In this document: positions 8,479 through 24,267 of the stretch, one piece after another
How positions within the stretch are numbered: position 1 is the first letter of the stretch
Layout: every line of letters starts with the position of its first letter
Source: a virus
IMG/VR virus record: IMGVR_UViG_3300036402_000229
Location: 1 to 24,764 of that record
Length of the DNA: 24,764 nucleotides
Direction: 5' to 3' (one strand)
The notes under the pieces: generated by a model
Database searches by the model: none
The model's input: only the letters and a program-made list of their open reading frames with translations
Told to the model about the DNA's origin: nothing
Position numbers and translations under genes: made by a program

Positions 8479-8568
8479 CGCCACCAACCGGCCCTGCCGC
8501 CGCGCTCCGTTCAACCCGGGCTGAGTCCCGTGGTGCGGGGCGCGGCGGCCGCCGATTGGCCCCCACGC
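8479..8568 (+). promoter_or_regulatory. Short GC-rich gap after the capsid gene with palindromes
   Basis: The 90 bp between capsid stop and the first glycosyltransferase carry CGGGCTGAGTCCCG (an imperfect hairpin near 8517-8530) and a perfect 12-bp palindrome CGGCGGCCGCCG (8543-8554). They could form a stem that attenuates transcription or separates high capsid expression from the downstream cassette. There is no T-tract, so an intrinsic terminator is not convincing, and no promoter was recognised. Confidence 0.3.
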
Positions 8569-9228
8569 ATGGGCTTCACTTCGCGCTCCTCCGTCGCCGT
8601 GCTCATCCCGGTGCTCGCGCGTCCGCATCGCGTCGCGGCGCTACTCGAGTCGCTGGCCGCTGCGACCCGTAGCCCGTACCGGGCGCTGTTCATCTGCGAC
8701 CCGCACGACCACGCCGAGCAGCAGGCCGTGCGCGACGCCGGCGCCGAGGCGCTGATCGTCGCCGGCAACTACGCCCGCAAGATCAACCAGGGGGTCGCGG
8801 CGAGCACCGACCCGCTGATCTTCCTCGGCGCCGACGACCTGCACTTCCACCCCGGCTGGCTGGCCCACGCTCGCCAGCATCTCGCGCCCGGGATCGGCGT
8901 CGTCGGCACCAACGACCTCGGCAACCCGCGCGTCGTCTCCGGCCGGCACGCCACCCACTGCCTCGTCACCCGTGCCTACGCCTCGCTCGGCTGCATCGAC
9001 CAGCCAGGCCAGCTGCTGTGCGAGGCGTACGCCCACAACTTCGTCGACGACGAGCTCGTGGCCACCGCCCGGAGGCGCGAGGCCTGGGCGTTCGCCCGCC
9101 AAGCCGTCGTCGAGCACCAGCACCCGCACTGGGGCAAGGCCGACATGGACGCCACCTACGAGACCGGACTCGCCAGCTTCGAGGCCGACCGTGAGCTGCA
9201 CCGCACGAGGATCCCGCTGTGGACGTGA
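8569..9228 (+). CDS. Glycosyltransferase-like protein 1 (GT-A fold, GT2-like)
   Basis: 219 residues from ATG 8569; a GTG at 8530 would add 13 residues that look non-coding. The N-terminus SSVAVLIPVLARPHRVAALL is the first Rossmann strand and helix of GT2-type glycosyltransferases. The metal/nucleotide-sugar site is a DxD-like ADD at D89-D90 in FLGADDLHFHPGW. C-terminal residues include a histidine-rich stretch (VVEHQHPHWGK) and a short helix. There is no signal peptide or membrane segment, so it would act in the cytoplasm on a soluble acceptor. It overlaps the next gene by 10 bp. Donor and acceptor are unknown; a virion protein is suggested by context only. Confidence 0.8.
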   Translation: MGFTSRSSVAVLIPVLARPHRVAALLESLAAATRSPYRALFICDPHDHAEQQAVRDAGAEALIVAGNYARKINQGVAASTDPLIFLGADDLHFHPGWLAHARQHLAPGIGVVGTNDLGNPRVVSGRHATHCLVTRAYASLGCIDQPGQLLCEAYAHNFVDDELVATARRREAWAFARQAVVEHQHPHWGKADMDATYETGLASFEADRELHRTRIPLWT

Positions 9229-9815
9229 CCGTCGTCGTGGCCACGTTCGGCGGCGCCGAGTGGACCGAGCTCGCGCAGTCCCGCGCGATCCCGTCCGGTG
9301 CGCTGCAGGCGCCTGTCGTCTACGAGCACGGCGAGACCCTCGCCACGGCGCGCAACGCGGGCGCCGAGCGGGCCACCAGCGAGTGGCTGTGCTTCCTCGA
9401 CGCCGACGACGAGCTCGCCCCCGGCTACATGAGCGCCATGGCCGCGGCCGACGGCGACCTCCGCGCTCCGGCCGTGACGTACGTCCGCAACGGCCGACCG
9501 GGCACCCCGAAGGTGTGGCCAGCGATGCCGCTGACGGAGGGCAACTACCTCGTCATCGGGTCGCTCGTGCGCCGCGAGATGTTCCTCGCCGTCGGCGGCT
9601 TCCGCGAGTACAGCCTCTACGAGGACTGGGATCTCTGGCAGCGCTGCTGGCTCGCCGGCGCCGAGATCGTCCAGGTCCCCGACGCCGTCTACATCGCGCA
9701 CGTCCGGCCGCAGTCGCGCAACCGCGCACCCACCCACGCCGAGCAGACCGCGATGCACCACGAGATCCGGCGCGCGAACTTCCCGGAGCTCTACGAGGCG
9801 GAGGCCGCGGCGTGA
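9219..9815 (+). CDS. Glycosyltransferase 2 (GT2 family)
   Basis: 198 residues starting at GTG 9219 inside the end of the previous gene. It is a near-minimal GT2 domain: first strand VTVVVATFGG, the nucleotide-binding ETLATARNAGAERATSEW helix, and a canonical DxD in FLDADDELAPGY (D61-A62-D63-D64). The acceptor-side motif GGFREYSLYEDWDLWQRCW follows, whose E-D pair is typical of the catalytic base region in GT2 enzymes. No membrane segment is present. It ends in a GTGA overlap with the next gene. This is the most canonical glycosyltransferase of the cassette and gives the best support for an active sugar-transfer role. Confidence 0.9.
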   Translation: MDVTVVVATFGGAEWTELAQSRAIPSGALQAPVVYEHGETLATARNAGAERATSEWLCFLDADDELAPGYMSAMAAADGDLRAPAVTYVRNGRPGTPKVWPAMPLTEGNYLVIGSLVRREMFLAVGGFREYSLYEDWDLWQRCWLAGAEIVQVPDAVYIAHVRPQSRNRAPTHAEQTAMHHEIRRANFPELYEAEAAA

Positions 9816-10489
9816 GCACCTGTCTCGTCGTCGTCACCGATGGCCGCCGCGACTGCCTCGCGCAGACCATGCGCAGCGCCACCGAGGCGCTCGGCCTGGC
9901 CACCTTCGACGAGCGGATCATCGTCAACGACAGCATCGACCACGACTACGGACGCTGGCTCGAGCTGCAGTTCGGGGGCGGCTTCCGGATCCTGCACCCC
10001 GACGCGGGCAAGCGCGGGTTCGCCGGCGCCGTTCAGGCCGGCTGGGCGGCGATCCGGGCCATCCCCCGCGCCGAGCTCGTGTTCTGGCTGGAGGACGACT
10101 TCACCTTCAACGCGCCGCTCGACCTCACCGCGATCGCCCAGGTCCTCGACCAGCAGCAGCACCTCGCTCAGATCGTGCTCAAGCGCCAGCCGTGGAGCAC
10201 CGCGGAGATCGCCGCGGGCGGCATCGTCGAGATGCACCCCGACGACTACATCGAGCGCACCGACGGCGCCCGCGTGTGGACGGAGCATCGCCGGTTCTGG
10301 TCGACGAACCCGTCGATGTTCCGTGCCGACACGTGCTGGCGCGACTGGCCGGCTGGGCGACAGAGCGAGGGGATCTTCACCCACGAGCTGCTCGCCGACG
10401 CGGACACGCGCTTCGCGTTCTGGGGCGCCAAGCACGCCGAGCCGCTCGTCACCCACATCGGCGACATCAGGGCCGGCCATGGCTACTGA
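9812..10489 (+). CDS. Glycosyltransferase-like protein 3
   Basis: 225 residues from GTG 9812 (GTGA overlap). The fold is GT-A-like: STCLVVVTDGRRDCLAQT strand-helix, IIVNDSID second strand, RGFAGAVQAGWAAI helix, then FWLEDDFTFN with E94-D95-D96 where the DxD normally lies. Later segments SMFRADTCW and a C-terminal GAKHAEPLVTHIGDI fit an acceptor-binding half with a His near the end. The divergent EDD motif makes the exact family less certain than for its neighbours. It overlaps the methyltransferase gene by 11 bp in another frame. No membrane helix is seen; it is probably cytoplasmic and acts with the rest of the cassette. Confidence 0.72.
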   Translation: MSTCLVVVTDGRRDCLAQTMRSATEALGLATFDERIIVNDSIDHDYGRWLELQFGGGFRILHPDAGKRGFAGAVQAGWAAIRAIPRAELVFWLEDDFTFNAPLDLTAIAQVLDQQQHLAQIVLKRQPWSTAEIAAGGIVEMHPDDYIERTDGARVWTEHRRFWSTNPSMFRADTCWRDWPAGRQSEGIFTHELLADADTRFAFWGAKHAEPLVTHIGDIRAGHGY

Positions 10490-11114
10490 CACCTACGGTC
10501 ACGAGTTCTTCGACACCATCCGCCACGGCTGCCAGCGCTCCGCCGCGGCCGTCGCGCCCATCGTTTATCGAGTCGCACGGCCCAGCGCCGTCATTGACGT
10601 CGGCTGTGGCGAGGGATGGTGGGGCGAGGCGTTCGCGGCAGCCGGCGGCTGCCTCGTCCTCGGCGTCGACGGCGCGTACGCCAACCCCGTCATCCCCCAC
10701 GAGACCGTCGACCTCGAGCAGCGCATCCCCGAACTCGGCCGGTTCGACCTGGCCGTCTGTCTCGAGGTCGCCGAACACCTGCCGCCCGAGCGCGCGGCGA
10801 CCTTCGTCGAGGATCTCTGCGAGCTCGCGCCCATCGTGCTCTTCTCCGCCGCGATCCCTGGCCAGGGCGGCACCGGCCACCTCAACGAGCAGTGGCCCGC
10901 CTACTGGGTCGAGCTCTTCGCCCGCCACCACTACGCCTGCTCCGGCGCGCTGCGCTGGTCGATCTGGGACGACGACCGCGTCGAGAACTGGTACCGCCAG
11001 AACCTCATGGTCGCGGCCGCGGACCCCGCCGCTCTGCCCGAATGGTTCGACACGCCCCTGGCCCCCATGTGGCCGGTCGTGCACCCGGTGCTCTACGACG
11101 CGCGGCGGTCATGA
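10479..11114 (+). CDS. SAM-dependent methyltransferase (class I)
   Basis: 211 residues. Motif I is VIDVGCGEGWWGE (residues 38-50), the glycine-rich SAM loop. The acidic residue at the end of strand 2 is in LVLGVDGAYA, and the strand 4 motif is FDLAVCLEVAEHLPPE, typical of Methyltransf_11/23-type small-molecule or sugar methyltransferases. The segment GQGGTGHLNEQWPAYW is also seen in methyltransferases of polysaccharide clusters as I recall them. It lacks the NPPY or DPPY motif of adenine-N6 DNA methyltransferases, so DNA is an unlikely target. Sandwiched between glycosyltransferases and coupled to both, it probably O-methylates a sugar of the glycan they make. Confidence 0.85.
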   Translation: MATDTYGHEFFDTIRHGCQRSAAAVAPIVYRVARPSAVIDVGCGEGWWGEAFAAAGGCLVLGVDGAYANPVIPHETVDLEQRIPELGRFDLAVCLEVAEHLPPERAATFVEDLCELAPIVLFSAAIPGQGGTGHLNEQWPAYWVELFARHHYACSGALRWSIWDDDRVENWYRQNLMVAAADPAALPEWFDTPLAPMWPVVHPVLYDARRS

Positions 11115-11866
11115 GCACCATCGCGATCGCGATGGTCAAGGACGAGGCCGACATCATCGAGCACACCGTCACCCGGATGCTCGACCAGGTCGACGCCGTG
11201 ATCGTCTCCGACAACGGCTCGACCGACGGTACCCGCGAGATCCTCGAGCGCCTCGACGTCACCGTCCTCGACGACGCTGACCCCGCCTACTACCAGTCGG
11301 CGAAGATGACCGCGCTCGCCGCCATGGCGCGCGAACACGGCGCCGACTGGGTGATCCCGTTCGACGCCGACGAGGTCTGGTACTCCCCGTTCGGCCGGAT
11401 CGCCGACGTCCTCCCCTCCCTGCCCAGCGCTGCGGCCGCCGCCGCCGTCTACGACCATGTCGCGACCGGCGAGGACCCCACCGGCCTGGACCCGATCGAG
11501 ACGATGGGCTGGCGCCGGCGCGATCCCGTCCCGCTGCCGAAGGTCGCATGCCGGGCGGCTCTGCACGTCACGATCCGCCAGGGCAACCACGGCGCGAGCT
11601 ACCTCCCGGCCGAGCCGGTCGACGGGCAGCTGGTGGTCAGGCACTTCCCGTATCGGTCGGTCGAGCAGTTCGTCTCGAAGGTGCGCAACGGCGCCGCCGC
11701 CTACAAGGCCACCGACCTGCCCGAAGACCACGGCGCGCACTGGCGGCAGTACGGGCAACTGCTCGACGCGCACGGGCCCGCGGTGATCGAGGAGATCTTC
11801 CACACCTGGTTCTGGGCGGCCGAGCCCGCCGGCGACGACACGCTGATCTACGACCCCTGCCCGTGA
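11111..11866 (+). CDS. Glycosyltransferase 4 (GT2-like, Glyco_tranf_2_4 type)
   Basis: 251 residues from ATG 11111 in an ATGA overlap. The first strand is STIAIAMVKDEADIIEHTV, the characteristic opening of this glycosyltransferase group, followed by VIVSDNGSTDGTREILE (the nucleotide-binding SDNxSTDGT motif, about residues 33-47). The DxD is in VIPFDADEVWY (D85-A86-D87-E88). A C-terminal HFPYRSVEQFVSKVRNG segment is also typical of this group, where it precedes an Arg/Lys-rich helix. There is no membrane helix. The next gene starts in a GTGA overlap. Donor sugar cannot be told from sequence. Catalytic motifs are complete, so it should be active. Confidence 0.9.
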   Translation: MSTIAIAMVKDEADIIEHTVTRMLDQVDAVIVSDNGSTDGTREILERLDVTVLDDADPAYYQSAKMTALAAMAREHGADWVIPFDADEVWYSPFGRIADVLPSLPSAAAAAAVYDHVATGEDPTGLDPIETMGWRRRDPVPLPKVACRAALHVTIRQGNHGASYLPAEPVDGQLVVRHFPYRSVEQFVSKVRNGAAAYKATDLPEDHGAHWRQYGQLLDAHGPAVIEEIFHTWFWAAEPAGDDTLIYDPCP

Positions 11867-12552
11867 GCGTCGCCGTCGTCGTGCCGTGGCGCGGCGGGTG
11901 CCCGCACCGAGAACGCGCGCTGGAGTGGATCACGGCCCGATACCAGGCCGAGCATCCCGCATGGCATCTCGTGGTCGCCGACGGGCCGCGCGGCACCCCG
12001 TGGGTCAAGGCCGAGGCGGTCATGCCGGCGGCCCTCGCGACCAGCGTCGAGCTCCTCGTGATCGCCGACGCCGACGTCTGGTGCGACAGCATCGCCGACG
12101 CCGTCCGCGCGGTCCGCGCCGGCTGGGGCTGGGCGATCCCGCACCGGCAGGTTCACCGCCTCACCGAGCCCGCCACCACCCTGCTGCTCGGAGGCGCCGA
12201 CCCGCTCACGCTCGCCGTCACCGAACCGCTCTACCGCGGCACCCCTGGAGGCGGCCTCGTCGTTCTCCCCCGCTCCACGCTCGAGCGTGTTCCGCTAGAC
12301 CCGCGCTTCGCTGGCTGGGGCGGTGAGGATCAGGCCTGGGGCGCGGCGCTCACCACGCTCGCAGGGCCGGCTTGGCGTGGAGCACAACCCCTCATCCATC
12401 TTTGGCACCCGCCGCAGCCGCGCATGAGCCGAGAGCGCGGCAGCGACCGCAGCGAGCAGTTGCGTGACCGCTACCTCGCGGCCCGCAACAGGCGAAGCGC
12501 GATGCGCGCCCTCGTCAACGAGATCCCCGCCACGCCGCACGTCGGCGTCTAA
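11863..12552 (+). CDS. Glycosyltransferase 5 (GT2/GT7-C-like)
   Basis: 229 residues from GTG 11863. The first strand is VSVAVVVPWRGGCPHRERAL. DxD is D69-A70-D71 in VIADADVWCDS. The strongest family marker is FAGWGGEDQAWG (G151-W152-G153-G154-E155-D156), matching the GWGxED acceptor/catalytic motif of polypeptide GalNAc-transferase and beta-4-galactosyltransferase C-terminal (GT7-C) domains. After it comes HLWHPPQPRMS, a His-rich metal-binding stretch seen in the same group, then an Arg-rich tail. No membrane segment. It is the last enzyme of the cassette; the fibre-associated gene starts 17 bp later with its own ribosome binding site. Confidence 0.88.
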   Translation: MSVAVVVPWRGGCPHRERALEWITARYQAEHPAWHLVVADGPRGTPWVKAEAVMPAALATSVELLVIADADVWCDSIADAVRAVRAGWGWAIPHRQVHRLTEPATTLLLGGADPLTLAVTEPLYRGTPGGGLVVLPRSTLERVPLDPRFAGWGGEDQAWGAALTTLAGPAWRGAQPLIHLWHPPQPRMSRERGSDRSEQLRDRYLAARNRRSAMRALVNEIPATPHVGV

Positions 12553-12569
12553 ACCAGGAGCAAGACCTC

Positions 12570-12980
12570 GTGGCCACACGCCTCGTCTTGATGATCCAGC
12601 CCGAGGGCGAAGACCCTCGTCCGATGGAGCCAGGCGACTACCAGGATCTCGTGGTGGCCGCCATCGCCGCGCTTGCGGCCGAGCTGCCCGCCTCGCCCGA
12701 AACCGGCCTCGCCAAGGACAGTGTCCTCCAGGCCGTACGCGATCGGCTCCCGGCCGCTCTCGCAGGCGGCCGCCTCAAGGCCGAGGTCGTCAACCCAGCC
12801 GGCGTGCCGGTCTCCGTGGAAAGCAGCAGCGTCGACTACACGCAGACGCTCGTCAGCTCGGGCGCCGCGGCCGGGCTGCCCGCGACCCGCACCTACACCT
12901 CCGGGCCGGAGGCGGGCAAGACGACGACCTGGACCTACGACCCGAGCACGGGCGGCGTGCTGGCGAAGGTGACAGCGTGA
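12570..12980 (+). CDS. Small fibre-associated structural protein, unrecognised
   Basis: 136 residues from GTG 12570, preceded by AGGAG (12556-12560) at a 9-bp spacing. The N-terminal half is acidic and helical. The middle LPAALAGGRLKAEVVNPAGV resembles a short linker motif frequent in phage virion proteins, and the C-terminus (TRTYTSGPEAGKTTTWTYDP) is beta-rich, Thr/Ser-rich and ends in a small domain typical of fibre-adjacent proteins. A stop-start GTGA overlap couples it to the SGNH fibre, so it may be an adaptor or chaperone for that fibre. The Ser/Thr-rich C-terminal half is also a plausible O-glycosylation acceptor. No homologue is recognised with certainty. Confidence 0.7.
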   Translation: MATRLVLMIQPEGEDPRPMEPGDYQDLVVAAIAALAAELPASPETGLAKDSVLQAVRDRLPAALAGGRLKAEVVNPAGVPVSVESSSVDYTQTLVSSGAAAGLPATRTYTSGPEAGKTTTWTYDPSTGGVLAKVTA

Positions 12981-14569
12981 TCGACGACGTCGACATCCTG
13001 GCCCAAGCGGGTGTTCGGGCTCGTCGTGATCTGAAGGCGATGCGCGCCTCCGTGATCGACGGGTACGGCTCCTCGCTGCTGCAGTCCTCGGACTCCGGCA
13101 CCGTGTATGTGCCGCGGCTGAGCGAGCGGTTCATGAGCCGCCTGGCGGCCGCGTTGGGTAACGCGCAAGAGCGCAACTTCGGGGTCGGGTCGACGGAGTT
13201 GATCCACGACGGTGCGACGCAGGGTTGGCCGCTGGCGTGGAAGCACACCGTCACGAATCTCCCGGGTTCCTCGACCGGGTACGCCCTGAAGAACGCCGGC
13301 CTGTTCCGGCAGCTGTGCCTGCTCAAGCACGCGTTCAACGACTGGCAGAAGAAGGGCAGTGACACGGCGATGGCCGGCACCTGGCGGGAGGGTGTGCGGG
13401 CGTGGATCGAGATGATGCGCGCGCAGTACGCGTTCCAGGCCAGCGACGCGATTTTCTCTGGTGGGCTGTCGGGCTGGACGGCGCAGGGCGTCAACGCCAG
13501 CTATGGCGGCTACTTCTACTCCCGCGGCACGGCGGGGTCGGTGGTCGCGACGCTCGGGTCTACGAATCCGGGGGGCCGGTTCACGTTCTACGCCCTCGTG
13601 AAGTCCGATGAGCGGTGGAGGGGCCGCGCGAAGATCGGCGCCGGCGCGTACGTCTCCACGCTCGACGCGACCGTGCTGGGTGTCGCGGGGTGGCTGACCG
13701 CCGTGTGCATCCCCGTCGACATCCCGGCTGGCGCCACGACCGTCACGCTGGACATCGACAACGTCACGGGCGGCATCCGGTTCCTCGGCGCCACCCTCAA
13801 CGCGACGGGCCACGGCCTCGAGCCGCTCGTGGTCATGATCGGGTCTCCGGCGACACCGTCGATGCCGTGGAATGGCGACGCGACTGGCTGGACGACGGCG
13901 CACAAGAACACCGCGAATCAGACGATGAGCGACCTGGCCGCCAGCTACGACGCCCGGGTGCGGTTCGTGTCGCTCGACTCGCTGGAGTCCGGCGGCGTCG
14001 GACGCCCCGAGCTCTTCGCCGATGACGTCCACTACGACTCGACGGGCAACGGCGAGATCGAGGAGCTGCTGCTCGCCGAGATCGCGCGGGCCGGCATCCC
14101 GCAGAACATCGGGTCGCCGTCGCGGATCTCGGCGGCGTCGAACACGTGGCCGGAGTGGAGCGAGCCGCGCGGCAAGGTCGCGATCGACTCCGCCGGCGGG
14201 GTGGCGTACTTCGCGAACGGCATCGACTACACCACGAAGGTGGCGTTGTGGGTGCCGGTCGGCGCGCCCGTCCCGGTCACGAAGACCGCGGATTACACGT
14301 TGGTGTTGCAGGATCAGGGCGGCCTGATCGAGATGAACTCCGCGTCCGCGCATGTGGTCACGGTGCCGCCGAACAGCTCGGTGGCGTTCCCGATCGGGAC
14401 GAGCATCGATCTCGTGCGCTACGGCGCGGGGACGCTCACGGTGACGCCGGGCGCCGGAGTGACGATCGACTCGCCGGCGGGGGTGCTGACGGTCGGCCCG
14501 CAGTATGGGCGCGCGCGGCTGTACAAGCGCGCGACGAACGAGTGGGTCCTGACCGGGAACCTGGCGTGA
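12977..14569 (+). CDS. Tail fibre / receptor-binding protein with SGNH hydrolase domain
   Basis: 530 residues from GTG 12977. An SGNH/GDSL-type hydrolase is indicated by the block I equivalent GYGSSLLQSSDS (probable nucleophile S33) and the C-terminal DxxH motif D349-D-V-H352 in FADDVHYDSTGNGEIEELL. Between them, about residues 150-280, is a beta-sandwich insert (GWTAQGVNASYGGYFYS, TTVTLDIDNVTGG) that looks carbohydrate-binding. Residues about 435-530 form a Thr/Val-rich beta module (DYTLVLQDQGGLIEMN, FPIGTSIDLVRYGAGTLTV) common at phage fibre C-termini. The likely role is to bind and de-esterify host surface glycans. Its place between head genes and tail genes is unusual; fibres normally follow the baseplate. 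Confidence 0.8.
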   Translation: MIDDVDILAQAGVRARRDLKAMRASVIDGYGSSLLQSSDSGTVYVPRLSERFMSRLAAALGNAQERNFGVGSTELIHDGATQGWPLAWKHTVTNLPGSSTGYALKNAGLFRQLCLLKHAFNDWQKKGSDTAMAGTWREGVRAWIEMMRAQYAFQASDAIFSGGLSGWTAQGVNASYGGYFYSRGTAGSVVATLGSTNPGGRFTFYALVKSDERWRGRAKIGAGAYVSTLDATVLGVAGWLTAVCIPVDIPAGATTVTLDIDNVTGGIRFLGATLNATGHGLEPLVVMIGSPATPSMPWNGDATGWTTAHKNTANQTMSDLAASYDARVRFVSLDSLESGGVGRPELFADDVHYDSTGNGEIEELLLAEIARAGIPQNIGSPSRISAASNTWPEWSEPRGKVAIDSAGGVAYFANGIDYTTKVALWVPVGAPVPVTKTADYTLVLQDQGGLIEMNSASAHVVTVPPNSSVAFPIGTSIDLVRYGAGTLTVTPGAGVTIDSPAGVLTVGPQYGRARLYKRATNEWVLTGNLA

Positions 14570-19503: not shown

Positions 19504-21684
19504 ATGGGCAACGACTCGAAGGTCCTGATCCGGCTGAAGATGCTCGGCGCCGCGCTCGCGGCGCGCGAGACGAAGAAGGTCACCGACGCCGAGCGCGCCC
19601 TTGATCGCCAGAGCGGCAAGACGGGCCGCTCGCTGGGTGTGCTGCGCCGCGGGTACGTGTCGGTCGGCGGAGCGCTGGGGAAGGTGACGCGCGCCGCGCG
19701 CTACGGGGCGATCGCGCTGGCCAGCGTCAGCGGCGTGATCAGCAAGCAGGCTGTCGACCGGACCGTCGACCTCGCGAAGGCGACGGCGGCGCTCGCCCGC
19801 AACTTCGGATTGACCGAGGTGCAGGCGTCGCGCCTGGCGGGCGTGGCGTCGGTGCGCGGCATTGATCTGAAGTCGCTGCAGATGTCGTTCACCGCGCTGT
19901 CCAAGCAGCAGCAGGCAGCGGTCGGCGGCAACAAGACGTCGATCAAGTACTTCGAGCAGCTCGGGCTCACGACCGACGACCTGGTCGCCGGCCAGCACAA
20001 TTTCCAGGGGCTGCTGTTCCAGGTCGCTGACGGCCTCGGCCGGCTGCCCGGCGGAGCGCAGCGCGCCGCGCTCGCGCAGAAGCTGCTCGGTCGCGGCTCC
20101 CAGACGCTGATCCCGCTGATGAAGCAGGGCTCCAAGACCCTCAAGGACCAGCTGGCGCTCGCGAAGAAGTACGGGGTCACGCTCGCCGGCAAGCCGCTGC
20201 AGAGCGCCCTCGACCTGGTCGCCGTGCAGCGCGAGCTCAAGTTCGCGCAGCTCGGCTTCCAGATCCAGCTCGCGACGAAGGTGATCCCCACCCTGCTGAA
20301 GGGGTGGAACTTCGTGCTGCGCCTGGTCAACGCGTACCGCCGGCTGTCGCCGGCGATCAAGGACACGATCCTCGTGGTCGGCGCCGCGCTCGCGGGACTC
20401 GCGTTCGGGCCGATCGGCGCGATCGTGATCGGTCTCGCCGTCGCCGGGGTGATGATCCGCAAGCACTGGAAGGAGATCGCCCCGATCTTCGACCGGGTCA
20501 ACACGGCCCTGCACGGCATCCCCGTCAGCGTCTTCAACACCCTGAAGGCGGCGGCGTTGGGGGTGTGGGCGGTGATCCGCCGGGTCGGGCCCAAGGTCGC
20601 GCACTGGCTCGGCAGCGCGATCCCGAAGGCCGCTGGCGCGCTGGTGACCGGGGTGCGTGCCGTGAAGTCGGGCGTGCAGTCCGCGATCGGTCCCGTCGTG
20701 CGGACTTTCAACACCGTCAAGGACGCGGTCACCGGCTTCATCGGCGGGCTCATCGGCCAGATGCGCCTCGGCGGGAAGGACGTCGGCGCGTTCGGTCACG
20801 CGCTCGGGAACATCGGCAAGGCCCTGCTGTTCGCCGGGAAGGTGGGCGTCGGGGCGCTGCTGGTCCTCGCCCGCATCTGGCGGTGGGTGTTCATGAACGT
20901 GATGCTCCCGGTCATCCGGCGTGTCCTGCCCGGGATCGTGCAGATCATCCAGGGCGTCTTCCGCGTGATCGGCGGCATCGTCAAGGTGTTCGCCGGCGTC
21001 TTCACCGGCGACTGGCGGCGCGCGTGGCGCGGCGTCAAGCAGATCTTCTCCGGCCAGTTGAAGATCCTCGGCGGCGTCGTGCGCGCTGGCACCGCTCCGC
21101 TGCGCGCCGCCGCGGCGCTCGTTGGCCGCGGCATCTCCGGCGCGTTCTCCGGCGCCTGGGGCCTGCTCAGGGGCGCCGCCCGCGGCGCGTTCTCCTACGT
21201 GCGCGGACGCTTCGACGCGCTCATCGGCTTCTTCCGCGGCATGCCGGGCCGGATCACGGGCGCCGCGAGCGGCATGTTCGCCGGAGTCAAGGACGCTTTC
21301 CGCAGCGCGATCAACTGGATCATCGGCAAGTGGAACGGGCTGACGTTCCACATCGGCGGCACCGACCTCGGGCCGCTCGGGCACCTGCCCGACATCAACA
21401 TCGGCACGCCCGACATCCCGATGCTCGGGACCGGCGGCACGGTCAGGCGTGCCGGCGCGGCGATCGTCGGCGATCGCGGCCCCGAGCTGCTCAGCCTGCC
21501 TGCGGGCGCGCACGTGACATCAGCCCGCGAGACGCGCCGCCTGATGGCCCGGCGTGAGCCGCGCGCCATGACGAAGATGCTGCCGGCGGCGCCGCTGTTC
21601 GCGCACATCATGCTCAAGAGCGACGTCGGTGTGGTGCATGAGGGCATCTACCGCCTCGAGCGCCGCGGCCAGGAGGCCCGGTGA
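19504..21684 (+). CDS. Tape measure protein
   Basis: 726 residues, the longest gene in the window, located directly after the chaperone. It measures tail length and is ejected with the DNA. Residues 1-90 are basic and helical. A region around 90-260 resembles phage tail tape-measure core repeats (FGLTEVQASRLAGVASVRG, FQGLLFQVADGLGRLPG). Hydrophobic, membrane-competent stretches lie at about 289-319 (DTILVVGAALAGLAFGPIGA) and 438-500 (KVGVGALLVLARIWRWVFM). The C-terminus has the typical GTGGTVRRAGAAIVGDRGP tail segment. At about 1.5 angstrom per residue the tail would be near 100 nm. ATG 19504 has GCAGG six bases upstream. Confidence 0.92.
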   Translation: MGNDSKVLIRLKMLGAALAARETKKVTDAERALDRQSGKTGRSLGVLRRGYVSVGGALGKVTRAARYGAIALASVSGVISKQAVDRTVDLAKATAALARNFGLTEVQASRLAGVASVRGIDLKSLQMSFTALSKQQQAAVGGNKTSIKYFEQLGLTTDDLVAGQHNFQGLLFQVADGLGRLPGGAQRAALAQKLLGRGSQTLIPLMKQGSKTLKDQLALAKKYGVTLAGKPLQSALDLVAVQRELKFAQLGFQIQLATKVIPTLLKGWNFVLRLVNAYRRLSPAIKDTILVVGAALAGLAFGPIGAIVIGLAVAGVMIRKHWKEIAPIFDRVNTALHGIPVSVFNTLKAAALGVWAVIRRVGPKVAHWLGSAIPKAAGALVTGVRAVKSGVQSAIGPVVRTFNTVKDAVTGFIGGLIGQMRLGGKDVGAFGHALGNIGKALLFAGKVGVGALLVLARIWRWVFMNVMLPVIRRVLPGIVQIIQGVFRVIGGIVKVFAGVFTGDWRRAWRGVKQIFSGQLKILGGVVRAGTAPLRAAAALVGRGISGAFSGAWGLLRGAARGAFSYVRGRFDALIGFFRGMPGRITGAASGMFAGVKDAFRSAINWIIGKWNGLTFHIGGTDLGPLGHLPDINIGTPDIPMLGTGGTVRRAGAAIVGDRGPELLSLPAGAHVTSARETRRLMARREPRAMTKMLPAAPLFAHIMLKSDVGVVHEGIYRLERRGQEAR

Positions 21685-22334
21685 CCCCGGTTCCCGGCGG
21701 CATGGTCCGCCTCGACCCGTCGCGCGGCTCCACCCTGACGTTGATCCTCGCCCAGCCGCCCGACCGGTCTGGCGGCGTCGGCGGATGGCAGGCGACGCAG
21801 CGCACGGGCCGGGCCCCCGGGAAGTGGTGGCTGGAGCAGCCCGACAGCGCCATCTCGCTGGAGTGCATCCTCGACCTCGACGCGATCGCCGGGCCGAGCA
21901 TCGAGCGGCGCCTCGACGTGCTGTACGCGATGGGCCGCAAGGGCAAGGCTGACGCGCCGCCGATCATCCGGCTGCTCGGCGACGTCGACCCTGAGGACCG
22001 GCGCACCAGGTGGGTGCTGCAGGACATCGCGAAGGGCGGGCGCCTCTTCACGCCCAACGGCCTGCTGCGTCAGCAGCGCGTCACGCTGCAGCTCGAGGGC
22101 TACGACGAGATCCCGACGATCAAGCCCGTCCAGATCAAGCGGACCCGCAACCAGCAGGGCAGGCGCCGCCGCCGGCAGGTCACCACCCACAAGAACGACA
22201 CGCTGCGCGCGATCGCGGTCCGCGAACTCGGCGCGTCGAGCGCCTGGCAGGACATCGCGTCATGGAACGAGCGCTTCAAGGGCGTCGACCCGGACGCGCC
22301 GCTGCGCGCCGGGATCAAGGTCACGCTGCGGTGA
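21681..22334 (+). CDS. LysM-containing tail/baseplate hub protein
   Basis: 217 residues from GTG 21681 in a GTGA overlap with the tape measure stop. The first about 145 residues form a beta-rich domain (STLTLILAQPP, PGKWWLEQPDSAISLECIL, RVTLQLEGYDEIP) similar to the tube-like initiator of contractile tails. A basic linker (QGRRRRRQ) leads to a LysM domain (about 160-217: HKNDTLRAIAVRELGASSAW ending LRAGIKVTL), which binds peptidoglycan or caps the hub. Equivalent proteins, such as P2 gpX or T4 gp53-type, connect the tape measure and tube to the hub. LysM at the C-terminal end is typical. Confidence 0.85.
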   Translation: MTPVPGGMVRLDPSRGSTLTLILAQPPDRSGGVGGWQATQRTGRAPGKWWLEQPDSAISLECILDLDAIAGPSIERRLDVLYAMGRKGKADAPPIIRLLGDVDPEDRRTRWVLQDIAKGGRLFTPNGLLRQQRVTLQLEGYDEIPTIKPVQIKRTRNQQGRRRRRQVTTHKNDTLRAIAVRELGASSAWQDIASWNERFKGVDPDAPLRAGIKVTLR

Positions 22335-22867
22335 GCCGCGACACGCCGGCCAAGCGCGCGCGGGCGCGCCGCGACGCGGCGCTGATGGCGCCTCCGAAGC
22401 GCGTCAAGCCACGCACCGACATCAGCGCGCTGAAGCTCGAGGCCGCCGGCCGCACCTACCCGATCGGGGAGAACATCGACGGTGATCATCCGTGGGAACT
22501 GACGCTCGAGGGCGCGGCCACGGTGGCAATCCCGATCAGGTCGCCAGACGCGTCGCTGCTCGACGTGCTCGCCGATGAGGCGCTGATCCAGGAGCAGGGC
22601 GTCCGGGTGGTGATCGACGGCGTCGTCTACGCGGTCGCGTCGGTCAACAGCGACGGCACGGGCCTCTACACACTCACGCTCGAGGACGAGGTCGCATGGC
22701 GGCTACGGCAGTTCTCCAGGTTCATGTCGGCCGACCGGCGATCCATCAACCGGGCTGGCTTCATCTATCGGATGGTGCAGGAGGCGTCGCGCCCGCCGCT
22801 CGCGCCCATGCCGGCGTTCATTCCGGAGATCAACGACAAGCAGCCCGTCGCCCGGACGAGCTCGTGA
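22331..22867 (+). CDS. Baseplate hub N-terminal part (gpD-like), split gene candidate
   Basis: 178 residues from GTG 22331 in a GTGA overlap. After a basic N-terminus (about 25 residues, SRDTPAKRARARRDA) it has the beta-barrel pattern of a hub protein's first domain: LEAAGRTYPIGENIDGDHPW, WELTLEGAATVAIPIRSPD, VRVVIDGVVYAVASVNSDG, LYTLTLEDEVAWRLRQFSR, then INRAGFIYRMVQEA. In P2 or Mu a single gpD-like hub covers this and the following gene's central region. Here the two parts are separate but translationally coupled, the stop overlapping the next GTG. The role (tail tip trimer ring) is inferred from order and fold-like pattern. Confidence 0.68.
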   Translation: MSRDTPAKRARARRDAALMAPPKRVKPRTDISALKLEAAGRTYPIGENIDGDHPWELTLEGAATVAIPIRSPDASLLDVLADEALIQEQGVRVVIDGVVYAVASVNSDGTGLYTLTLEDEVAWRLRQFSRFMSADRRSINRAGFIYRMVQEASRPPLAPMPAFIPEINDKQPVARTSS

Positions 22868-24267
22868 CCCTCAAGCGCCCGAATGCGCCGGCGCGCAGGG
22901 TCACCGCTACGGCCGCAGCCAAGCAGGGGGATGCCGGCCGCGCCCACGGCCTCGGCGAGGGGTCGAGCATCACCGTGAAGGGAGCGCGCGCGACCAGCGC
23001 GCAGCGCGCGGTGATCGACGGCTGCCTCAGCGAGGCCAAGCAGGCGGGCGCCTCTCAGCGCGTGATGGTCGCCGTGGTGATGGCCATCACCCAGGAGTCG
23101 GGCGCATCGACCGGCGCGGTCAACGGCAGCCACATCGGCCCGTTTCAGCAGGACCCGGCGTGGGGGTCCTCGTCGGATCGCACCGATCCCGAAGCGTCCA
23201 CCCGCCTGTTTCTGCGTGGCGGCAAGGCTGGCCAGTCCGGATGGCAGCAGACCCAGGGGGGCCTGAAGGCCGCGCCGGGCGATCTCTCGCTGGCGATCGA
23301 GGCGGTGCAGCGCAGCGGCCGGCCGAGCGCGTACGCGCAGTGGGAGACTGAAGCCACGGCCACGGTCAAGGCCTGGCTGGGATCCGACGGGTTCGGCACC
23401 AGCGCCACCACCAAGAAGCGCTACACGTTCACTCGCGGCGAGCGCGGCGGCCAGCGCGAAGACTCCTGGGAGGCGACCGGCCGCCTCGCCGAGGAGGTCG
23501 GCCGGCGCCGCTGGGCGGCGGGCAACGTCTTCGGCTACGCCAGCGACGAGGAGCTGCGCGCCGCGGCGCCGAGCTTGGTGATCCACGGCGACGAGGGCTG
23601 GCTGCTGTCAGATCCCGAGTGGGACTGGGGCCAGGCCCGGGCGGTGTCCGAGGTCACGCTGCGCGTCGCCGCCGACCGGTGGGGCGTGATGCCCGGCGGT
23701 GTCGTGATCATGGCCACGGGCGGCGTCACGGACGGCCGGTTCGAGGTCAAGAGCGTCTCCGGCGCACGCCTCGACAGCCCAGAGGCGGACGTCGTGCTCA
23801 TCCGCCCCACGCGGTCGAAGGCCGAGCCGCCCGCTGAGGCGGCCAGCGACTCGGGAGCGGGCAGCGCGAGCGGCCTGCGCGCCGCGTGCCAGAAGATCTC
23901 CGACCAGCACCGCGCCTACCTCTTCGGCGGCGGCCACAAGGCACTGTCGGCGATCACCGACCACGAGCCGCTGGACTGCTCGAGCGCAGTGTCGCTCGCC
24001 CTGTGGCTCGCCGACATGTTCCCGGGCAGCGCCGCGCTGACCAGCGGCGCCCTCGCGGCGGCGTGGGGCAAGGCGGGCAAGGGCCAGGAGTTCACGGTGT
24101 GGGCGAACGACGGGCACTGCTGGATCGAGGCCTACGACGGGGACGGCAAGTTCGCGTGGCGCTTCGACACCCGACCCGTGGCCGGCGAGGACCGCGGGCC
24201 ACGGGTCCGCACCAGCCTGATCGCCGACCAGGGCCGCTTCAGCGGACGGCACTGGGCCGGCCACTAG
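22864..24267 (+). CDS. Baseplate hub/tail lysin: lysozyme-like, hub and NlpC/P60-like domains
   Basis: 467 residues from GTG 22864. Residues about 50-175 resemble the transglycosylase-like domain frequent in actinobacteria: AVVMAITQESGAS with candidate catalytic Glu78, HIGPFQQDPAWGSSS, and SLAIEAVQRSGRPSAYAQWE. About 185-325 is hub-like (YTFTRGERGGQREDSWEATG, WDWGQARAVSEVTLRVAADR, DGRFEVKSVSGA). About 340-467 is NlpC/P60-like: YLFGGGHK, Cys372 in LDCSSAVSLAL, His418 in VWANDGHCWIEAY, WRFDTR. It would sit at the tail tip and cut both glycan and peptide bonds during DNA entry. All three catalytic residues are present. It begins in an overlap with the preceding gene. Confidence 0.82.
   Translation: MTLKRPNAPARRVTATAAAKQGDAGRAHGLGEGSSITVKGARATSAQRAVIDGCLSEAKQAGASQRVMVAVVMAITQESGASTGAVNGSHIGPFQQDPAWGSSSDRTDPEASTRLFLRGGKAGQSGWQQTQGGLKAAPGDLSLAIEAVQRSGRPSAYAQWETEATATVKAWLGSDGFGTSATTKKRYTFTRGERGGQREDSWEATGRLAEEVGRRRWAAGNVFGYASDEELRAAAPSLVIHGDEGWLLSDPEWDWGQARAVSEVTLRVAADRWGVMPGGVVIMATGGVTDGRFEVKSVSGARLDSPEADVVLIRPTRSKAEPPAEAASDSGAGSASGLRAACQKISDQHRAYLFGGGHKALSAITDHEPLDCSSAVSLALWLADMFPGSAALTSGALAAAWGKAGKGQEFTVWANDGHCWIEAYDGDGKFAWRFDTRPVAGEDRGPRVRTSLIADQGRFSGRHWAGH

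Follow-up and report, generated by a model that had tools for sequence, protein, structure and literature searches.

Two neighbouring plus-strand genes, at positions 22331 to 22867 and 22864 to 24267 of a 24,764-nucleotide viral sequence, were assigned with good confidence as together encoding the baseplate hub of a contractile-tailed, probably actinobacterial phage, in which a muramidase is placed between the two hub halves and a peptidase at the C-terminus. The sequence, referred to here as the window, is the viral record IMGVR_UViG_3300036402_000229 over its 24,764 bases, and is probably a fragment.

Two adjacent genes probably encoding one baseplate hub

The region was recognized as that of a contractile-tail baseplate because homologues of sheath, tube and tape-measure genes (PHROG profiles) lie upstream of ORF 22864-24267, together with the gene for a GpU/LysM-type baseplate protein (21681 to 22334, plus strand; Pfam Phage_P2_GpU, E 2.3e-6, LysM weak), which adjoins the hub genes and is itself GTGA-coupled to the gene starting at 22331. 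On the contractile tail and on the location of ORF 22864-24267 (plus strand), a preliminary description of this DNA was correct. The portal and capsid proteins resemble HK97-type families, the portal falling below the curated cut-off. The phage's host is probably among the Actinomycetota. Those prophage relatives described below are located in Actinomycetota genomes, and their hosts are therefore Actinomycetota, a name that follows the title of an Amycolatopsis record and general taxonomy.

Several other genes of the window deserve mention. A cluster of glycosyltransferase-like ORFs (8530-12552) lies between the capsid and connector genes and includes 10616-11866 (Pfam Glyco_tranf_2_4, E 2.3e-13) as well as 8972-10489 and 11548-12552, both with matches to PHROG galactosyl transferases, and a methyltransferase-like ORF (9840-11114) in another frame; the prophage of genome G080 has only ~1 kb at this site. 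A 701-residue ORF (12464-14569), also between capsid and connector genes, matches PHROG virion structural, minor tail and tail fibre families over its last 100 residues. On the 3' side of the hub, the small gene 24271-24567 matches the beginning of a far longer protein of the related contig L009 (5850-7490), which carries collagen-like repeats (Pfam Collagen, E 5.8e-12) and a CBM_5_12-like stretch below the cut-off, and which is resembled, as judged by eye, by a long protein of contig L038 (4251-6161). In the window, this gene may encode a short spike that lacks the fibre.

To the first hub gene (22331-22867, plus strand, GTG start, 178 residues) we assigned the N-terminal half of the hub, based on a profile match between its product and the front part of undivided hubs (hhalign probability 95%, E 2.4e-8; the three hubs L015, L016 and L017, which have no muramidase inserted). 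It is 57% and 61% identical to its counterparts in L009 and L014. The second gene (22864-24267, plus strand, GTG start, 467 residues; 55-57% identity to L009 and L014) begins within the tetranucleotide GTGA (22864-22867, plus strand), where its start overlaps the stop of the first gene. Its residues 185-320 (23416-23823, plus strand) correspond to the rear half of the same undivided hubs, with identities of 35% (L015), 27% (L016) and 23% (L017). Judged by this homology, ORF 22864-24267 contains the second hub half only. The hub core that had been described within it was thus correct for the rear half, but a complete hub in this one ORF was rejected, the front half being the separate upstream gene 22331-22867. 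It follows from the separate first half that the muramidase is placed between the hub halves, leaving the peptidase as the sole terminal lytic domain, and the previous view of two enzymes flanking the hub in a single chain was abandoned.

ORF 22864-24267 had no matches in Pfam or NCBIfam, and its PHROG matches were to tape-measure, virion-structural and endolysin profiles, with none to a hub profile, a pattern that would also suit a free tail lysin encoded beside the hub and forming no part of it. Such a lysin is highly improbable, however, since the undivided hubs whose rear half resembles residues 185-320 carry the front half, this rear half and the peptidase in a single chain. For the hub itself, a gp27-like fold is suggested by homology to hubs identified mainly by gene position and by one weak match in the PDB: the rear-half hub profile matched 3d37 ("Tail protein, 43 kDa") at E 0.13 and nothing else, and the whole-hub profile A16, built from three distant hubs, found no hub there. 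AlphaFold2 models of ORF 22864-24267 with three sequences (pLDDT 40.1) and of the C-terminal domain (pLDDT 49.2) were too poor for their active sites to be judged, and a Foldseek search with the low-quality C-terminal model gave no match at E <= 0.001 and no NlpC/P60 protein among the 50 matches listed.

The split is conserved in three relatives. A 57.8-kb virus contig (L009) has the same two ORFs, at 57% and 55% identity to those of the window, and the same two-gene arrangement was found in a bacterial chromosome (L014) and in another virus contig (L038). In the L014 chromosome the locus is surrounded by genes homologous to those for the portal, capsid, sheath and tube of the window, which identifies L014 as a prophage. 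The junction sequence varies among the four: GTGA in the window, ATGA in L009, TAG and then GTG in L014, and TGATG in L038. We considered whether a single chain is nevertheless made, the apparent split being due to an error in sequencing or being overcome by programmed frameshifting or by readthrough of the stop, as relatives with one unbroken gene exist and three of the four split members have their second gene in the -1 frame. However, the break falls at an identical place in four separate records, each with its own junction sequence, and no X XXY YYZ slippery heptamer is present in the hubN frame of any of them. In addition, the second gene of L014 is in the same frame as hubN, directly behind an in-frame TAG, and its frame is closed ahead of the start codon, such that a frameshift cannot join the two, although readthrough of the TAG could. 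Programmed frameshifting was rejected on the basis of the missing heptamer and the L014 arrangement, and a one-chain hub by any of these routes is considered improbable. Our favored interpretation is a hub of two chains, which would co-fold.

The predicted muramidase and peptidase domains

The domain at 22969-23382 (plus strand, residues ~36-173) was assigned as a GH184-like muramidase. Profile A14, made from five hub domains and searched against 177,635 distinct PDB sequences, gave two clear matches, 8b2h (E 4.8e-10) and 8b2e (E 1.4e-7), with the match to these structures spanning most of the domain and aligning the catalytic Glu; both entries are in the table of GH184 structures in PMC10394673. 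Residue 78 of the 467-residue translation is indeed the Glu reported previously (23095-23097) and, by our own count in the A14 alignment, it is aligned with residue 125 of 8b2h_A. Presumably the residue numbers of 8b2h are those of TtGH184. The Glu125 of TtGH184 is given in PMC10394673 as the equivalent of Glu41 (Ks), which mutation showed to be essential, and of Glu45 of phi29 gp13. Supporting the importance of Glu78 was that it is one of 10 invariant columns and is kept in nine of nine muramidase-like domains, including one from a tape measure protein and one of cellular origin. The domain had previously been termed transglycosylase-like. Its glycan-cutting nature and conserved Glu78 were borne out, but an SLT lytic transglycosylase was rejected, as neither SLT nor any other Pfam family was identified in this domain and the profile match was to GH184 instead. 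On profile homology, therefore, the glycosidase is a GH184-related muramidase, whose activity is predicted, rather than an SLT transglycosylase.

This domain also occurs away from hubs. By tblastn it was found in actinophage tape measure proteins, with 75 of 50,697 phage records matching at E 0.01 or better and, among the 40 matches listed of those 75, all falling within residues 27-192 of the product. A plasmid search matched 22 records, and the 20 listed cover the muramidase region alone. Scanning genome contigs yielded two Amycolatopsis loci; the one that was read, L007, has a muramidase-like domain in a 263-residue cellular ORF without a hub. A separate observation is that a single virion-protein profile, phrog_2810, matches the muramidase of L002 (220-316) as well as the NlpC/P60 domain of L016 (472-565), which suggests that the two may also be paired in other virion proteins.

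The C-terminal domain (23872-24261, plus strand, residues ~337-466) was designated NlpC/P60-like using profile A15. Cys372 (23977-23979) and His418 (24115-24117) were read from the translation at the positions previously reported and are invariant in 11 of 11 C-terminal domains, and Asp435 (24166-24168), which from its position alone is probably the third catalytic residue, is present in 10 of the 11, with Glu in the remaining one. Against the PDB, A15 (10 sequences, cellular rows included) matched 8idc (E 5.1e-6), 8er5 (E 9.8e-6), LytE and CwlO, and weakly the diffocin hub-hydrolase 8v3w (E 0.019). The assignment depends in part on the cellular rows of A15, as profile A13, made from four phage and prophage sequences only, reached CwlO at E 0.43, ranked behind unrelated agroavidin matches. 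In Pfam the window domain had no match and did not reach the cut-off of PF00877 (NLPC_P60), which was passed by the fused relative L002 and by one of the five cellular relatives scanned (L033; 23.7 versus 23 bits). BLASTP did not align the window domain with the classic NlpC/P60 domain of L002, and the window-type family profile matched the classic NlpC/P60 profile around the Cys only (probability 28-36%). The NlpC/P60-like designation of the preliminary description is consequently upheld by the profile with cellular relatives, where Pfam alone is blank. Among 149 actinobacterial genomes, relatives of the domain gave 12 matches in four, one of these being the L014 prophage itself, and some cellular relatives have coiled-coil-like fronts that are CwlO-like by eye. 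The actinobacterial genome G123 has five copies (L026, L029, L032, L034 and L036) of a related cellular NlpC/P60-like subfamily.

Catalytic residues present by chance were excluded by the invariance described above. It is also conceivable that one or both domains are inactive and have a wall-binding or structural role instead, given that, in our reading of the A14 alignment, Asn87 stands where the fungal GH184 enzymes have a second acidic residue, and that the C-terminal domain diverges too far to be recognized by Pfam. Nevertheless, Glu78, Cys372 and His418 are kept without exception, the second acid is less conserved in gp13 as well, according to PMC10394673, and relatives exchange the peptidase for other peptidase-like domains (by eye) rather than lose it. 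Inactivity was thus judged unlikely, and both domains are regarded here as predicted enzymes.

Undivided relatives, probable history and occurrence

Fifteen complete hubs were compared: four are split and bear the muramidase, eight are fused and bear it at the same place (L002, L024, L044, L047, L050, L051, L053 and L055), and three are fused and lack it (L015, L016 and L017). In the eight, the N-terminal half, muramidase and rear half are in one ORF. L054, which is cut at the locus edge, was left out of the complete fused hubs, and L003, L004, L010, L013, L023, L037, L039, L040 and L045 were left out as repeats or copies of L002, L009 or L024. Behind the hub, Pfam identified SLT in L015 (E 1.8e-26) and NLPC_P60 in L016 and L017. 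In L016 (535-1038) there are also 168 N-terminal residues ahead of the undivided hub that are lysozyme-like by eye, with no Pfam match.

When the 12 hubs that bear the muramidase were placed in a tree, the split members (four) and the fused members (eight) fell on opposite sides of a branch with a bootstrap of 100, and the separation of split from fused was retained (bootstrap 96) in a nine-taxon tree that included uninserted hubs. Since the uninserted hubs are undivided, the simplest order is insertion first and one later break. It is likely, with few taxa and no certain root, that an undivided hub gained the muramidase and was subsequently broken once, at the insertion.

The C-termini of the fused hubs are diverse. 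From motifs read by eye (H...D...HxH), we take those of L024, L044, L050 and L055 to be LAS-like and those of L051 and L053 to be M23-like; the L024 C-terminus had no Pfam match and no phmmer match in the PDB. L047 and L055 are sisters (bootstrap 100) whose C-termini nevertheless differ, being NlpC/P60-like and LAS-like, respectively (both by eye), and therefore the peptidase has been exchanged between relatives. As read from these sequences, the pair is a natural swap of the C-terminal peptidase-like domain.

Searches by tblastn with the hub N-terminal half, the rear half and the C-terminal domain gave no matches for any of the three in 50,697 annotated phage records, among which the split hub is therefore unseen. 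In bacterial genomes, sampled in sets that overlap (phylum, order and class), the rear-half profile was found in four of 396 from the phylum of an Amycolatopsis genome and in two of 42 from the order of G080, both already found, the N-half profile in three of 299 from the class of G080, and the whole second-gene profile, at E 1e-20, in nine of 399 from that class. The arabinosyltransferase family PF04602 is absent from all four host genomes of the relatives and present in the one Amycolatopsis comparison genome, which agrees, as a correlation, with arabinogalactan-free walls in those hosts, a link from such walls to the paired lysins, as raised in the preliminary description together with heavy cross-linking, being conjectural.

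Proposed mechanism and comparison with known hubs

We infer that the two hub genes would be translated in succession via stop-start coupling, and that both chains would co-fold as a trimer, forming a gp27-like adapter beneath the tail tube, with the second chain carrying the GH184-like muramidase between the hub halves and the NlpC/P60-like cysteine peptidase (Cys372, His418 and probably Asp435) at its C-terminus. Contraction would then drive the hub into the wall, where cleavage of glycan strands by the muramidase and of stem peptides by the peptidase would create a local opening through which the tube could pass. A two-lysin function in the hub is plausible because the diffocin hub-hydrolase provides a functional precedent. 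A bolder and rather unlikely proposal is that the hub is detachable: the first half would stay as the tube adapter and the lysin-bearing half, held solely by non-covalent contacts within a single folded domain, would be released or re-oriented upon contraction, leaving both lytic domains free to swing into the wall, the break having been enabled by the muramidase insertion and the interchangeable peptidases being tuned to host wall chemistry. The relatives constitute a natural series (a hub without an inserted lysin, a hub with the muramidase in one chain, and a hub broken at the insertion, with the second lysin exchanged). With this series one can test in what way phages infecting thick-walled bacteria construct and readjust the hubs that pierce the wall, and whether a hub ring can be assembled from two chains.

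The closest comparison is the diffocin hub-hydrolase CD1368, which combines a hub, a lytic transglycosylase and an NlpC/P60 domain within a single chain of 581 residues (PDB 8v3w, PMC11329794). Like the window hub, it belongs to a contractile tail aimed at Gram-positive cells and joins a gp27-like hub to a glycan-cutting domain and an NlpC/P60 endopeptidase, and the image of scissors for a thick Gram-positive wall was already used in PMC11329794. A glycosidase and a peptidase on a contractile-tail hub, both of which had been proposed for the window and are supported by homology, are accordingly not as unusual as was then thought, also in view of a 2017 review that lists five two-lysin virion proteins, all from Gram-positive phages, and offers the thick wall as explanation (PMC5380687). 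The differences lie in construction. CD1368, as described in PMC11329794, is one undivided gene with its lytic domains in tandem behind the hub (338-458 and 465-581) and a glycan-cutting domain named as a lytic transglycosylase with Tyr-Asp-Asp, whereas the window hub comprises two genes, with a GH184-like muramidase between the hub halves. Hub, glycan-cutting and NlpC/P60 domains, which define the diffocin type in a single chain, are therefore not all in one chain here, the front half of the hub being a separate gene. By analogy, the window hub may work like the diffocin hub-hydrolase while being built differently.

In T4 the hub ring and the lysozyme likewise come from two genes, gp27 and gp5, but there the cut falls between hub and spike-lysozyme, and in the window inside the hub itself. 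The T4 gp5 trimer is located in the hub in the account of PMC5380687. CwlP of prophage SP-beta also combines a muramidase and an endopeptidase in one virion protein, but is a 252-kDa protein for which section 12 of PMC5380687 mentions no hub. The phi29 tail-tip lysin gp13 similarly pairs a muramidase-like with a peptidase-like domain, the second being M23-like where that of the window is NlpC/P60-like. We take gp13 to be a chain without a hub, and its phage to be a podovirus. It is the nearest structure to GH184 according to PMC10394673, which also indicates that the characterized GH184 members are fungal enzymes, most of them with an SH3-like wall-binding domain, whereas the window domain lies inside a phage hub. 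Full-text searches of open papers found no muramidase inserted inside a hub with a gene break exactly there. The two-lysin hub is not a new idea, because the structure of diffocin CD1368, with glycosidase and NlpC/P60 in one chain, was already solved; what appears new is a hub of two neighbouring genes with the muramidase at the break.
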